A stretch of DNA of 59,692 nucleotides. Origin: a virus. The position numbers and the translations under genes are program-made. Location of the stretch: positions 1-59,692 of IMG/VR virus record IMGVR_UViG_3300042453_002905; one strand, given 5' to 3'. The notes below the pieces were generated by a model. The model was given only the letters and a program-made list of their open reading frames with translations. It was not told the DNA's origin and ran no database searches. Positions within the stretch are counted from its first letter, which is position 1, and each line of letters starts with the position of its first letter. Shown piece by piece: positions 3,490 through 59,692 of the stretch.

Positions 3490-3680
3490 CGAATCGCATC
3501 ACCCCCTACGAAGCCGGCTGGCTCTCGATGCTGGTCGCCCGCGGACTGGCGACCGAGGCCGAGGCCCGCGAGGCCCAGCACCGGGTTGCCCGAGCCGCCA
3601 TCGACGAGATGGAGGCCCGCCGTGCGGCGAAACGGGAACTGAAAAAGAGGCTCAAGGGGCGTCGTCCGAAGGACGATTGA
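3486..3680 (+). CDS. Hypothetical small helical protein, 64 aa
   Basis: ATG at 3486 overlaps the previous stop (ATGA) and is preceded by GAAGGGGGCGAAGAA. The product is one or two helices (GWLSMLVARGLATEAEAREAQHRVARAAIDEM) with a basic end (RRAAKRELKKRLKGRRPKDD). A small DNA-binding or scaffold role is possible; unknown. Confidence 0.6.
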   Translation: MTNRITPYEAGWLSMLVARGLATEAEAREAQHRVARAAIDEMEARRAAKRELKKRLKGRRPKDD

Positions 3681-3732
3681 CTACTGGCCGATAGTTTGCA
3701 TAGGCTTCACGCCGTCACAAGGAACCCCGATC

Positions 3733-10359: not shown

Positions 10360-10379
10360 ATTGTGACGGCGCGTCGCCT
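10360..10379 (-). promoter_or_regulatory. Promoter-like element AGGCGAC-N7-CACAAT
   Basis: AGGCGAC (10379-10373), seven bases, CACAAT (10365-10360) on the minus strand, followed by AGACAA and the ATG of the VRR-NUC gene. It shares its spacing with four other sites (see the findings). The upstream gene's TAG stop overlaps its first bases. Confidence 0.45.
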
Positions 10380-11067
10380 ATATGTCTACCGCAGTTTCTT
10401 CAAACGCAGCGTAGCGTCCGTCGTAGGAGTATGCCGGCATCTTCCACCTGCTGCGCCGGCCGCCGACCGCACGCTTCTCGGCCTCACCTGCCGGCCAAGA
10501 ACGCCGCACCTCGGCGGCCCGTTCGGCAATCTGCTCAGGAGTCGGATCATCGGGATGAACCGGATCGGCTTTCTCTCGTTTCGGCAATTTGTGTGCCTTC
10601 GCGAGCTTGTAGAGGTGCGACTGGCTGATGCCTCCCAGGCGTCGACAAATCTCGGCCACCGGCATGATCTCGGCCGGCTTGTGCCAGAGCCGAAACAGCG
10701 AGGGAATGTCGACGACGATCAAGTCGTTTCCCCGAGGGCGTCCGACACGCTCGCGATCGGGGAGCCTGAATCGCGACTTGAGCAGCGATGCGGTGCTTGG
10801 GCTGATGCGAAAATGCTGTGCTATCGCCTTTGTCGGCATCGTTGCCGGCGACATCTCCCAGAGGCGTCGAAACTCCGACTCGCTCACGTCGACCTTAATA
10901 CGGCCACGAAGCGGCGACAGTCGCCGCCGTGGCGGCAGCCCGAGACTTTGCCGCATCTCATGGACTTTCGACTCGCCGCACCGCAGCCGCTTCGCGATCT
11001 CGCACGTCGGCATCTCGATACGGTCACGGCTCCACAACTCAATCAGCATCTGCTCATCAGCACGCAT
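10378..11067 (-). CDS. Tandem helix-turn-helix DNA-binding protein, 229 aa
   Basis: Start ATG 11067 has AAGGGAG upstream. Three similar HTH units follow each other: MPTCEIAKRLRCGESKVHEMRQSLGL (about 20-45), MPTKAIAQHFRISPSTASLLKSRFRL and MPVAEICRRLGGISQSHLYKLAKAHKL. Each starts with MP and ends before a basic PxRR/PDRE linker, like the GcrA/homeodomain-like repeats of phage regulators. The C-terminus has the AERAAEVRRSWPAGEAEKRAVGG motif also seen at 8285-8575. Likely a transcription regulator binding an extended or repeated operator. Confidence 0.75.
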   Translation of the reverse strand: MRADEQMLIELWSRDRIEMPTCEIAKRLRCGESKVHEMRQSLGLPPRRRLSPLRGRIKVDVSESEFRRLWEMSPATMPTKAIAQHFRISPSTASLLKSRFRLPDRERVGRPRGNDLIVVDIPSLFRLWHKPAEIMPVAEICRRLGGISQSHLYKLAKAHKLPKREKADPVHPDDPTPEQIAERAAEVRRSWPAGEAEKRAVGGRRSRWKMPAYSYDGRYAAFEETAVDI

Positions 11068-13807: not shown

Positions 13808-13909
13808 TCAGTCCCTGGTCATGTACGGAATCAAACTGAGATAAAAACACCCACCCGCGATCACGAGGAGCGTGGCGATGTTCAGCCAGGCGTGGAGAGC
13901 GTCGTGCAT
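13808..13909 (-). CDS. Membrane microprotein overlapping csrA, 33 aa
   Basis: ATG 13909 has AAGGAGGAAGG about four to ten bases upstream, itself inside the csrA 3' end. The product is a single hydrophobic helix (HAWLNIATLLVIAGGCFYLSL) with short polar ends. It overlaps csrA by 28 bases in another frame. The excellent ribosome binding site makes it credible despite its size; function unknown. Confidence 0.55.
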   Translation of the reverse strand: MHDALHAWLNIATLLVIAGGCFYLSLIPYMTRD

Positions 13910-14070
13910 GTGCCTTCCTCCTTGGGCTGAAGCTCGTTGCGAACGATCGCCACATTCGGCGGCGCTTTGATCGCGAGCCTGACGTTGCCGTCCACGATCC
14001 GCGTGACCATGACTTCGATGTCAGGGCCGATCCGAACCTTCTCGCCGCGGCGGCGGGTGATGACAAGCAT
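13882..14070 (-). CDS. csrA: Phage CsrA (carbon storage regulator), 62 aa
   Basis: MLVITRRRGEKVRIG, IEVMVTRIVDGNVRLAIKAPPNV and IVRNEL match the CsrA/RsmA fold end to end, including the N-terminal strand (L2-R7) and the VxR region that contacts GGA in RNA hairpins. CsrA dimers block or stabilise mRNAs at GGA motifs. A phage copy could reprogram host metabolism or control its own transcripts. ATG 14070 has AAAGGA eight bases upstream. The C-terminal extension (about residues 50-62) is encoded by DNA shared with the 33-aa microprotein frame. Confidence 0.9.
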   Translation of the reverse strand: MLVITRRRGEKVRIGPDIEVMVTRIVDGNVRLAIKAPPNVAIVRNELQPKEEGTCTTLSTPG

Positions 14071-21619: not shown

Positions 21620-21648
21620 AATCTATCGGCGATCAGGCGACTCGTCAA
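21620..21648 (-). promoter_or_regulatory. Sigma70-like promoter TTGACG-N17-TAGATT
   Basis: On the minus strand TTGACG (21648-21643), 17 bases, TAGATT (21625-21620), followed by the SNF2 gene's ribosome binding site and GTG 21595. It overlaps the end of the upstream gene by a few bases. Five of six and four of six matches to the housekeeping consensus. Confidence 0.5.
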
Positions 21649-22577: not shown

Positions 22578-23426
22578 GTGAAACTGCTCGATGTAGTCCG
22601 CGACTTGTACGCGCCGCTGAGAGGGATCAGCGACCGCACGGTCGAGATTTACGCCGGCACGTTTCGGCGCTTCGGCGAATTTCTCGGCCACGAGCCGACG
22701 ACCGCCGATCTCGACGAGATCACGCTGGCGAAATACCTCGCCCATAGGGTTCGCACGTCGTCGCCAGGCAGCGCAGCGAAATGCAGGGCCTGCCTGCGGG
22801 CCGTCTGGGAATTCTGTGCGAAACGCAAATTGACCGAAACCTGGCCGGAGGTTCGGACGATTCGCGTGCCGGAGCGAGTTCCGCGGGCTTGGCTGATCGA
22901 GGAGTTTCAGCGGCTGCTCGGAGCCTGCGAGACAGAATACGGCGAAGTCGTCGGCGTGCCGGCGAGGCTCTGGTTTCGAGCGATCGTGCTCACGGCGTAC
23001 TGGACCGGCGAGCGGATCGGCGCGTTGCTGACGCTAGAGTGGGCAGACGTCGAGCCGGAGGCGATCCTGTTTCGAGCCGAAACAAGGAAAGGGCAGCGAG
23101 AAGACATTTACCGACCGATCCCGCCGGAGTGCTATGCAGCGATCCAGGCTATTCGCAGCAAACGCAAGCTGGTCTTCGACTGGGATAGGTCATACACGCT
23201 GATCTGGGGCCGACTCGGCAAAATCTGCGAGCGGGCGGGGTTGCCGAATGACAGGATGAGCAAATTTCATCGCGTCAGAAAAACGTCGGCGAGTTATTTC
23301 CAGGCCGGTGGTGGTTCGGCCCAGGCTCTGATGGGGCATCGGAATCCTGCGACGACCCGGCGATACCTCGACCCTCGGATCGTCAAGACACCGGCCGCGC
23401 CGGAGATTCTGCCGCGAGTTGGCTAG
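22578..23426 (+). CDS. int: Tyrosine recombinase (integrase), 282 aa (GTG start)
   Basis: GTG 22578 is used (the frame upstream offers only TTG). The N-terminal SAM-like domain (SDRTVEIYAGTFRRFGEFLG..TLAKYLAHRV) binds core sites. The catalytic domain has TGERIGALLTLEW (Arg I), TRKGQREDIYRPIP (beta-hairpin Lys), FHRVRKTSASYF (HxxR) and MGHRNPATTRRYLDPR (His and the Tyr nucleophile). The full RKHRHY set is present, so it should be active in site-specific integration. No arm-type N-terminal domain is visible. No attachment site could be identified by eye. Confidence 0.9.
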   Translation: MKLLDVVRDLYAPLRGISDRTVEIYAGTFRRFGEFLGHEPTTADLDEITLAKYLAHRVRTSSPGSAAKCRACLRAVWEFCAKRKLTETWPEVRTIRVPERVPRAWLIEEFQRLLGACETEYGEVVGVPARLWFRAIVLTAYWTGERIGALLTLEWADVEPEAILFRAETRKGQREDIYRPIPPECYAAIQAIRSKRKLVFDWDRSYTLIWGRLGKICERAGLPNDRMSKFHRVRKTSASYFQAGGGSAQALMGHRNPATTRRYLDPRIVKTPAAPEILPRVG

Positions 23427-30948: not shown

Positions 30949-31518
30949 CTAAACCTCTATTCTATCGTTCCGTAGCCTTTTAATGGCGGCATCGACCCTG
31001 CCTCGGAGGGCGTCCAGAGTGCCTGTGTTGTCGATTACTGTGTCAATCAGAAACTCAGGAATGCCCGCCTCGCTGGAGTGCTGGGCTGCGTCGTCGGCGA
31101 GGCACCGCTGTCGCCGCTCCACTCGCCATATCTGACCGCCTGCGGCCTTGATGACCTCGACCTCGTTGATGAATCGCACGTCCGTCAGGGCGACGCCGCC
31201 GGCCCCCCGGAGGTACTTCTGGCACGCCTCGACCTGCCGCATGGCGATCGTGATCCAGATGTCCTGGCTGATCGTGTCGCGCCCCCACTCAGTCCCGAGG
31301 GTCTGGAGAAGCTCGCGGGGAGATTTCCCGAGCCACTCGATCTTCTGCTCCTTCGTCGACCGCTCGCGGAGCCGAGGCACGGGGATGCCTGTGATCGACG
31401 AGACTGCCGCGTAGACGGGGTCGGCGAACCCGAACTGAATCCAGCCGTAGCGGGCCTGGAGATGGTCGGCGATCGTGTTCTTGCCGCAGCCAGCAGGGCC
31501 GCACAGTCCAATCAGCAT
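30949..31518 (-). CDS. Deoxynucleoside monophosphate kinase, 189 aa
   Basis: P-loop GPAGCGKNT (7-15), QFGFADPVYAAV, LLQTLGTEWGRD and TDVRFINEVEVIKAAGG are the phage dNMP kinase (T4 gene 1-like) hallmarks. It phosphorylates dNMPs for phage DNA synthesis. ATG 31518 with GGAGGA seven bases upstream overlaps the stop of the upstream gene. Confidence 0.85.
   Translation of the reverse strand: MLIGLCGPAGCGKNTIADHLQARYGWIQFGFADPVYAAVSSITGIPVPRLRERSTKEQKIEWLGKSPRELLQTLGTEWGRDTISQDIWITIAMRQVEACQKYLRGAGGVALTDVRFINEVEVIKAAGGQIWRVERRQRCLADDAAQHSSEAGIPEFLIDTVIDNTGTLDALRGRVDAAIKRLRNDRIEV
30959..30978 (-). promoter_or_regulatory. Promoter-like element AGGCTAC-N7-TAGAAT
   Basis: AGGCTAC (30978-30972), seven bases, TAGAAT (30964-30959), then AGAGG, located in the last codons of the dNMP kinase gene and about 22 bases ahead of the membrane-protein start at 30937. 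Same spacing as at 37671-37690 and 33423-33442. Confidence 0.45.
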
Positions 31519-33422: not shown

Positions 33423-33453
33423 ATAGTATCGGCCGGTAGCCTGTTGAGGTCAA
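33423..33453 (-). promoter_or_regulatory. Promoter-like element TTGACC / AGGCTAC-N7-TACTAT
   Basis: On the minus strand TTGACC (33453-33448), AGGCTAC (33442-33436), seven bases, TACTAT (33428-33423), then GTAGCC and the ATG at 33416. Read as a sigma70 promoter it is TTGACC-N17-GATACT. The gap 33417-33471 is otherwise empty. Confidence 0.5.
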
Positions 33454-37670: not shown

Positions 37671-37690
37671 ATTGTACCCTTCAGTAGCCT
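37671..37690 (-). promoter_or_regulatory. Promoter-like element AGGCTAC-N7-TACAAT
   Basis: AGGCTAC (37690-37684), seven bases, TACAAT (37676-37671), then AGAGG and the ATG at 37662. The gap 37663-37691 contains nothing else. With -10 this near to the ATG, a transcript would be almost leaderless. Confidence 0.5.
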
Positions 37691-52847: not shown

Positions 52848-53010
52848 AGTGGCCTTGCTCCTAAATGTGAGCCGGCCACGGGGCAAAAAGATGCTCGACG
52901 GCCGGCGGGTGAAAAAGTCCCGCAAGCACGCCGAGCGACGCAGTCCGCGTCACCCTCGCACTGTTCCTCGCAACGTCCGTCGCGAGGCGTGTATTGTCTA
53001 CCCTTGTATC
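52848..53010 (-). other. Leader of the major capsid gene
   Basis: 163-base gap between protease and capsid genes on the minus strand. It contains the promoter-like element at 52993-53012 and AGGAG/AAGG near the ATG; I see no other gene. A T5 run and GC arms near 52900 may fold. Confidence 0.5.
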
Positions 53011-53012
53011 CT
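52993..53012 (-). promoter_or_regulatory. Promoter-like element AGGATAC-N7-GACAAT
   Basis: AGGATAC (53012-53006), seven bases, GACAAT (52998-52993), overlapping the TAG stop of the protease gene and 146 bases from the capsid ATG. Same spacing as the other four elements; here the leader length is normal. Confidence 0.5.
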
Positions 53013-57696: not shown

Positions 57697-57716
57697 CTAG
57701 TCTAGTCGCGTCGCCT
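57697..57716 (-). promoter_or_regulatory. Weak promoter-like element AGGCGAC upstream of terS
   Basis: AGGCGACGCGACTAGACTAG (57716-57697) begins with the same AGGCGACGCG as the element at 10360-10379, but the -10-like hexamer is poor (GACTAG at the standard distance, TAGACT two bases nearer). Position right before the terS start is suggestive only. Confidence 0.3.
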
Positions 57717-57900
57717 GTGCGACGGCAAAGGAGTCTGGAGAGGCGTTTTCTCCAAATCGCCGAAAACCGATTTCCCAGGTGATTGGTAGTACTGTCGCTC
57801 GCGGCAGCCTCGGGGAACAGGCGGTCTGCCCGTCGAACGCCCCCCAACGGTGGGGGGCCATCCTTAGGGGGGGGGGTGCGATTTGGCCGGGCTGGGCCGG

Positions 57901-57960
57901 CGTCGTGGCCGGCGTCGTGGCCGGCGTCGTGGCCGGCGTCGTGGCCGGCGTCGTGGCCGA
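57901..57960. repeat. Five tandem 12-bp repeats (CGTCGTGGCCGG)
   Basis: Five head-to-tail copies of CGTCGTGGCCGG at 57901, 57913, 57925, 57937 and 57949 (the last ends A). They are non-coding; the plus-strand open frame through them is an artefact of the 12-bp period. Iterons of this kind occur at phage origins or regulator-binding sites. Confidence 0.85.
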
Positions 57961-57986
57961 GTCTCTCAGCGTACCAAATGTCCAAA

Positions 57987-58032
57987 CACAATATTTTGTG
58001 GCGTTGGCGACAGGCCGCCACAAAATATTGTG
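57987..58032. repeat. 17-bp perfect inverted repeat
   Basis: CACAATATTTTGTGGCG (57987-58003) and its exact reverse complement (58016-58032) flank a 12-base spacer. This AT-rich palindrome stands out from GC-rich surroundings and lies 17 bases before the -35 of the plus promoter. It could be a dimeric repressor or replication-initiator site, or a cruciform; as RNA it would be a strong hairpin. Confidence 0.9.
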
Positions 58033-58048
58033 CTTCTCAACTCTACCA

Positions 58049-59512: not shown

Positions 59513-59692
59513 ATGAAACGAGACATTCAATCCGGCGACCGCGTGAAGTATGCCGCAAAATTCCTGCGTTCGATTGGATGCCAGACCGGGCCGGCGTGCT
59601 TCGTGACTGGCACCGTGACGGCCTTGAATCGATACGGCGGCCGGTCAGGCGTCAACGTGGCGACGGTGGCGTGGGATGACCCCAACGAGGGA
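59513..59692 (+). CDS. Small hypothetical protein, 5' part (gene split by linearisation)
   Basis: ATG 59513 after GAGGAAACGCGACG. The frame runs open off the end of the window and continues at base 128 (stop at 190), giving an 80-residue protein: a basic start (MKRDIQSGDRVKYAAKFLRS), then TGPACFVTGTVTALNRYGG and VNVATVAWDDPNEGTAVN, likely a small beta barrel. Function unknown. Confidence 0.7.
   Translation, partial: MKRDIQSGDRVKYAAKFLRSIGCQTGPACFVTGTVTALNRYGGRSGVNVATVAWDDPNEG
59566..59692. repeat. Terminal direct repeat, right copy
   Basis: Right copy of the exact 127-bp end overlap. It lies inside the coding sequence of the small gene that begins at 59513, whose frame continues without a break from base 59692 to base 128, which supports circularity. 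Confidence 0.9.

Follow-up and report, generated by a model that had tools for sequence, protein, structure and literature searches.

An AGGCTAC box phased to -10-like hexamers in putative promoters of uncultured tailed phages, a possible phage control element

The middle promoters of phage T4 carry a phage-specific element, the MotA box, upstream of a host-type -10 hexamer, where it replaces the -35 element at scattered promoters; this box has a TGCTT core, is centred at -30 and lies 12 ± 1 bp from the -10 (PMC2988021). The Lpa-activated late promoters of phage P1 are likewise specific promoters with a -10 ahead of late genes, and they are served by a phage regulator that binds RNA polymerase (PMC8198154). 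In mycobacteriophage L5, the operators and stoperators are asymmetric sites that recur across the genome in the direction of transcription; each is bound by a monomer of the L5-type repressor, which has two DNA-binding domains, and 26 stoperator/operator copies are reported in an L5 relative (PMC9283540). The GcrA-type activators of Alphaproteobacteria are associated with sigma70 and are thought to act with it at promoters that have an adjacent recognition site (PMC7987155). Finally, in canonical leaderless sigma70-type promoters the -35 and -10 elements are 16-17 bp apart and the ATG follows 4-8 nt after a -10-like hexamer; the spacer has no conserved box.

Features that recall these designs are found in the DNA analysed here (the window), which is the whole of the IMG/VR record IMGVR_UViG_3300042453_002905 (59,692 bases, 61.5% G+C). 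It codes for a tailed phage whose packaging genes (terminase, portal, protease, major capsid) are of the HK97 type. A terminal repeat of 127 bases (1-127 and 59566-59692) is probably a circular assembly overlap. In the window and its relatives, a box with the sequence AGGCTAC recurs 5 or 7 bp upstream of -10-like hexamers (Table 1). As in T4, a box that appears to be phage-specific lies upstream of a host-type -10, but its sequence and distance differ from those of the MotA box, and at some promoters a -35 coexists with it. The Lpa site of P1 is an inverted repeat centred near -22, whereas AGGCTAC is asymmetric. The L5 sites are also asymmetric, repeated and oriented with transcription; however, they are unrelated in sequence, and the copies described here (about six credible ones in the window, fewer than in the L5 relative) stand in phase with -10 hexamers where genes begin. 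In contrast to GcrA-regulated promoters, there is no GANTC site. The leaderless sigma70-type promoters share the 16-17 bp spacing and the short distance to the ATG, and the box is an addition to them.

Table 1. Box sites and associated features in the window.
Feature	Position	Strand	Sequence or product	Associated gene and remarks
Site A	37671-37690	-	AGGCTAC (37684-37690)-TGAAGGG-TACAAT (37671-37676)	Exact; 8 nt to ATG 37662 of g66, a small unknown gene; no recognisable -35
Site B	30959-30978	-	AGGCTAC (30972-30978)-GGAACGA-TAGAAT	Exact; 21 nt to ATG 30937 of g57; no -35
Site C	33423-33453	-	TTGACC (33448-33453)-N5-AGGCTAC (33436-33442)-N5-GATACT (33425-33430)	8 nt to ATG 33416 of g62
Site D	10360-10388	-	TAGACA (10383-10388, -35-like)-N3-AGGCGAC (10373-10379)-GCGCCGT-CACAAT (10360-10365)	6 nt to ATG 10353 of g21
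Site E	52993-53012	-	AGGATAC-AAGGGTA-GACAAT	145 nt upstream of major capsid ATG 52847; no -35
terS promoter	57697-57716	-	AGGCGAC (57710-57716)-N5-TAGACT (57699-57704)-N7-ATG 57691	Preceded by conserved CTCCTTTGC
Possible left-arm tandem copy	3678-3721	+	TGACTAC-TGGCCGA-TAGTTT, then AGGCTTC	Candidate
Capsid leader hairpin	52966-52987	-	CCTCGCGAC-GGAC-GTTGCGAGG	Major capsid mRNA leader; GGA loop; 5 nt after the site E hexamer
g31	13882-14070	-	Phage CsrA, RNA-binding regulator, 62 aa	Pfam CsrA, E 8e-18
g22	10378-11067	-	DNA-binding protein, three predicted helix-turn-helix units	Next to site D on its upstream side; 3' end on site D

The initial annotation had listed five 20-mers of this type on the minus strand, and every one is present (sites A to E). 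Its statement that they lie directly before a gene holds for four of them and fails for the capsid site. Three exact matches to AGGCTAC-N7-TANNAT occur in the window, all on the coding strand before genes, compared with about 0.01 expected from base composition. In 15 order-2 Markov simulations, 0 exact matches were obtained, with 0.2 matches at one mismatch and 4.1 at two. Because about four two-mismatch sites are expected per window, sites D and E, which have two mismatches each and are not above chance from the window alone, need outside evidence; such support is provided by the orthologous positions in relatives. A plus-strand near-match, noted in the annotation at 21634, has three mismatches, and about 53 sites of this quality are expected per window. 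A relaxed weight-matrix scan of the window gave 24 matches compared with 7 in permuted controls; many of the low-scoring ones are intragenic, and these are not claimed here.

A terminase search yielded 80 related loci, and further records were then read out. In 36 records, the exact pattern was matched 19 times and its reversed control once, and the matches were always on the strand of the terminase gene wherever the terL locus fixes the orientation. In 109 records (1.28 Mb), the distance from AGGCTAC to a -10-like hexamer was 7 bp at 41 unique places and 5 bp at 18, with at most 8 at any other distance; both peaks persisted after loci were added (56 and 28, respectively). The annotation had considered that the spaced pair might be as frequent inside genes as upstream of them. 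This is not the case: 31 of the 41 unique pairs at spacing 7 have a same-strand gene start no more than 150 nt downstream, compared with 8% of random positions, an enrichment that is strong but not exact because the gene starts come from our own simple caller. In addition, 28 of the 41 boxes are intergenic, yet 80% of the DNA is coding. When all 630 permutations of the 7-mer were compared, AGGCTAC ranked first, with 31 compared with 12 for the next. It is therefore very improbable that the pattern is made of chance matches and the common descent of a few promoters, with no functional box. The two weak sites among the five in the window would fit such an explanation, but the first rank of AGGCTAC argues against it, and so does the fact that the non-homologous promoters of g66, g57, g62, g21, the capsid gene, terS, g75 and left-arm genes share both box and phasing.

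The orthologous positions bear this out promoter by promoter. One relative (L084) retains all three exact window sites, with an altered spacer at site A and with TACAAT as the hexamer at site B; the box is also found at site A in L104, L107, L109 and L221. Site B overlaps the 3'-terminal codons of the preceding gene, g58 (dNMP-kinase-like), and its box is kept with a different spacer and flanks in L084 and, with TATAAT, in L103 and L117. The boxes of the g57 and g62 promoters are likewise kept amid variable surroundings in L103, L107, L110, L116 and L117, the g62 copy of L103 being AGGCGAC. About 20 different sequences ahead of g62 orthologs repeat the architecture of site C, with a -35/-10 spacing of 16-17, and the design recurs in g62 and g21 upstream regions that were added to the comparison afterwards. 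At site D, ahead of the endonuclease/resolvase-like gene g21, six relatives (L118, L123, L127, L131, L214, L215) have TTGACC or TTGACA followed after 17 bp by the hexamer, and the box is an exact AGGCTAC in L214 and L215. Most relatives have A(G/T/A)(G/T/A)CTAC-N7-(G/C)ACATT at the position of site E, upstream of the major capsid gene, so the window copy appears to be a degenerate form of a real element. The recurrence of a promoter-associated element ahead of genes, the major capsid gene included, is thus upheld by the relatives and by the position statistics. Sequence comparison thus shows the box, its phasing, its conservation at the putative promoters and its lack of enrichment in the presumed host phylum (described below).

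The spacer was described in the annotation as exactly seven bases. This agrees with the main peak, but there is a second register at 5, which site C fits better. Sites that also have TTGACC or something very like it show a spacing of 17 or 16 bp to the hexamer when the one 5 bp from the box is counted (15 and 5 entries, respectively); at some g21 sites, it is the hexamer 7 bp away that gives 17. Site C itself reads TTGACC-N17-GATACT, whereas the TACTAT of the annotation (33423-33428, AGGCTAC-CGGCCGA-TACTAT) would be at N19. The g62 orthologs of L193 and L194 have TTGACT-N17-GACACT, with CACTAC in the other register, which supports the GATACT register at site C. The spacing-5 and spacing-7 classes overlap, since many spacing-5 sites are double-phase (GATACTAT). 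A -35 is recognisable in a subset only, the majority of box sites having none; at g66, g57 and the major capsid gene, which are among the latter, the hexamer is 7 bp from the box. The hexamer begins with T at 19 of 41 sites without a -35 and at 2 of 14 with one; more T-initial hexamers are expected without a -35 if other contacts must compensate. The box-phased hexamers include TATAAT and TACAAT. Because of the -35 elements at 16-17 bp and the -10 registers, the box is best described as a spacer element on an ordinary-looking sigma70-type promoter.

Other assignments of the box fit less well. The annotation had placed the 7-mer where an extended -10 or an alternative-sigma element would be. 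An extended -10 does not apply, as its TGn belongs 1 bp upstream of the hexamer; the site profile has no conserved TG there, and the preceding base is A in 75%. An alternative host sigma factor is unlikely, since 294 genomes from the phylum presumed to contain the host show no enrichment of the pair. It is also highly improbable that these are promoters of a phage-encoded RNA polymerase or of sigma54. The compact, bipartite motif and the capsid hairpin, which begins right after the hexamer, speak for this, but PHROGs and Pfam scans of the main proteins gave no RNA polymerase, and both assignments are opposed by the -35-like hexamers at 16-17 bp. The GG-N10-GC pair of sigma54 is absent from the site profile, in which the GC positions are mostly A, then G/C/T. 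AGGCTAC was also considered as a -10 in its own right (TAC plus 3 bases). This fits g66 in L104, L107 and L109 and terS in L049/L081, in which the TAC of the box may begin the -10, but fails for g62, g21 and g57. In L219, L223-L241 and L250-L259, the place at which others have AGGCTAC-N7-hexamer, close to the end of the g67 ortholog, is occupied by TTGACA(or G)-N7-(G/C)A(C/T)N(A/C)T; TTGACA likewise has a peak at spacing 7, mostly from one orthologous locus.

The phages form a freshwater family whose hosts are probably planctomycetes. The sole host evidence is a terminase relative (63%) on a contig of a Planctomycetaceae MAG, so a planctomycete host is likely rather than proven. In a scan of all viral contigs for TTGAC-box-hexamer, most matches were unrelated low-GC contigs at chance level, and the credible ones were high-GC freshwater relatives. 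The exact AGGCTAC-N7-hexamer pair does not occur in the 3.5-Mb planctomycete MAG. It was matched in 47 of 294 genomes of that phylum, mostly once each, with the reversed control at least as frequent, so it is not enriched there, the assignment of the host to this phylum being moderately supported. The pair would therefore be a phage signal, unless the host lies elsewhere. The same result weighs against an element intrinsic to the promoter that a host sigma factor, or the host polymerase by way of an unusual contact in the spacer, would recognise without any phage protein. We regard this as unlikely, although the box is common to promoters of both arms and the -10 and some -35 elements resemble standard host-type signals. 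We know of no described promoters of planctomycete phages, and none were found in a literature search on these phages.

Several of these promoters may give leaderless transcripts, as proposed in the annotation, and the short hexamer-to-ATG gaps are compatible with this. At sites A to E, the hexamer of the 20-mer lies 8, 21, 6, 6 and 145 nt from the ATG. Across many phages, the ATG of g62, g21 and terS follows the hexamer after 4-8 nt, with no ribosome-binding site, which fits messages that start at or beside the ATG; this is probably the case for these three genes. The case is less clear for g66, which has a gap of 8 nt and an AGAGG just before the ATG. De novo k-mer searching ahead of possible leaderless starts, which were few and noisy, gave no clear motif.

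Our results would be explained if AGGCTAC were a control box specific to this phage lineage, set in sigma70-type promoters, several of them leaderless, and read by a phage-encoded DNA-binding activator; we give this reading about an even chance. Host RNA polymerase with a sigma70-type factor would read the promoters, in which the box stands within the -35/-10 spacer, separated by 5 or 7 bp from the -10 that follows. At g62 and g21, a TTGACC-like -35, 16-17 bp from the -10, would act beside the box, while at g66, g57 and the major capsid gene the box seems to substitute for it. The activator would bind the box and help the host polymerase to open the promoters, and scattered genes could thereby be co-regulated. 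We favour an activator for two reasons: the box is found in promoters of important late genes that lack a -35, and it is by activation that its closest known counterparts, T4 MotA and P1 Lpa, work. Against it, the distance from box to -10 varies by 2 bp (rarely 3), which is awkward for a rigid contact with polymerase, and the box precedes structural, replication and left-arm genes alike, so it marks no single temporal class. If an activator does read the box, the spacer position and the 2-bp freedom would be unusual among phage activators. The shared box provides a sequence handle on what may be co-regulated genes of a large uncultured phage group. It also permits the correction of gene starts (leaderless ATGs without ribosome-binding sites) and makes the regulon and its regulator directly testable.

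The same 2-bp slide relative to the -10, in a box within the promoter spacer, would suit a repressor. The box might then be a phage operator for lysogeny or global shut-off, placed between -35 and -10 like the operators of lambda or the operators and stoperators of L5, and keep polymerase from many lytic promoters. The integrase-like gene of these phages makes a lysogeny repressor possible. This gene (g41, 22578-23426, plus strand, tyrosine-integrase-like, Pfam E 2e-12) is also present in the relatives examined and suggests a temperate origin. The asymmetry of the box and its orientation with transcription, as in L5 sites (PMC9283540), point in the same direction, as do two exact boxes 22-23 bp apart in L123 and L131, in a left-arm promoter similar to that of the tandem candidate in Table 1. 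However, nearly all gene-proximal boxes are phased to a -10, whereas stoperators also occupy short intergenic spaces. The -35-less promoters would be weak and hardly in need of many repressor sites, and the box lies directly before late structural genes. A repressor is the main rival and a serious one, although distinctly less probable than an activator.

For the activator reading, the protein g22 and its relatives are candidate readers of the box. It matches phrog_323 ('transcriptional regulator, D5-like', E 3e-8) and Pfam HTH_23 and HTH_17, and its AlphaFold2 model has a mean pLDDT of 81.5. Like the L5-type repressor with its two DNA-binding domains, it has several helix-turn-helix units; g18 is a paralog of it. 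A PDB sequence search with g22 gave nothing significant, and Foldseek returned no match below E 0.001. The GcrA DNA-binding domain was among the Foldseek matches (probability 0.82, TM 0.69 by target), but at E 1.9 this is not significant and is generic for HTH folds, and g22 has no Pfam match to GcrA. Shorter g22-related proteins precede g21 in relatives. A simple search had suggested that the presence of g22 matches that of the box, but an iterated profile found more divergent g22-like proteins in G025, a phage with few boxes. The presence of g22 is therefore not diagnostic, its link to the box is only positional, and this finding also speaks against the activator reading. A further candidate reader, g39 (HTH_17), is encoded close to the integrase-like g41. 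In the part of the proteome that was scanned, there was no MotA- or AsiA-like protein.

In the leader of the major capsid message, a 9-bp hairpin with an invariant GGA loop follows the hexamer. An automatic search recovered it in 30 of 31 relatives, and visual inspection added the remaining one (L033). Among 19 distinct sequences, 98.8% of cells are paired and 7 of 9 pairs change on both sides, values reached by no shuffle; Rfam gave no match in the window. Since the outer pairs covary, the RNA should contain the whole stem. The stem begins 1-5 nt after the hexamer (1-2 nt in most relatives), in conflict with a start 7 nt downstream of the hexamer, which also counts against the activator reading. 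Either the capsid transcript starts closer to the hexamer than is normal for a -10, or the hairpin functions in transcripts that read through from further upstream. GGA in hairpin loops is the target of CsrA, and CsrA homologs (g31 in the window) are encoded in all eight of the larger phage genomes examined. A link between phage CsrA and the capsid leader is thus a natural hypothesis. We also consider a bolder and quite unlikely scheme, in which a multi-HTH protein of the g22 family binds host sigma, reads the spacer AGGCTAC at either spacing and drives a largely leaderless regulon, while phage CsrA protects or times the capsid message through the GGA-loop leader hairpin; this would be a new mechanism of host-polymerase takeover.

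The weaker site that the annotation had mentioned ahead of terS is real, in the spacing-5 form given in Table 1, and the box is a perfect AGGCTAC in L044 and L048. The terS promoters align as CTCCTTTGC-N20-hexamer-N7-ATG, with TAGACT as the window hexamer, and they largely account for a peak of TANNNT at -13 from the ATG. In most of about 55 relatives, CTCCTTTGC lies about 33 nt before the terS ATG (window example 57720-57740, minus strand). It is stricter than an ordinary -35 and could be a -35 variant or the site of another protein. In the divergent region upstream of terS, a 12-bp sequence, GGCCGGCGTCGT, is repeated in tandem (57883-57971). An inverted repeat, AAACACAATATTTTGTGGCG / CGCCACAAAATATTGTGCTT, with 20-nt arms 12 nt apart lies at 57984-58035. 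In the left arms of three relatives (G007, G017 and G031, corresponding to L123, L131 and L118), several promoters have box variants (ACCCTAC, AGGCTCC), with G+C-rich inverted repeats, for example GCCGGC..GCCGGC, close behind.
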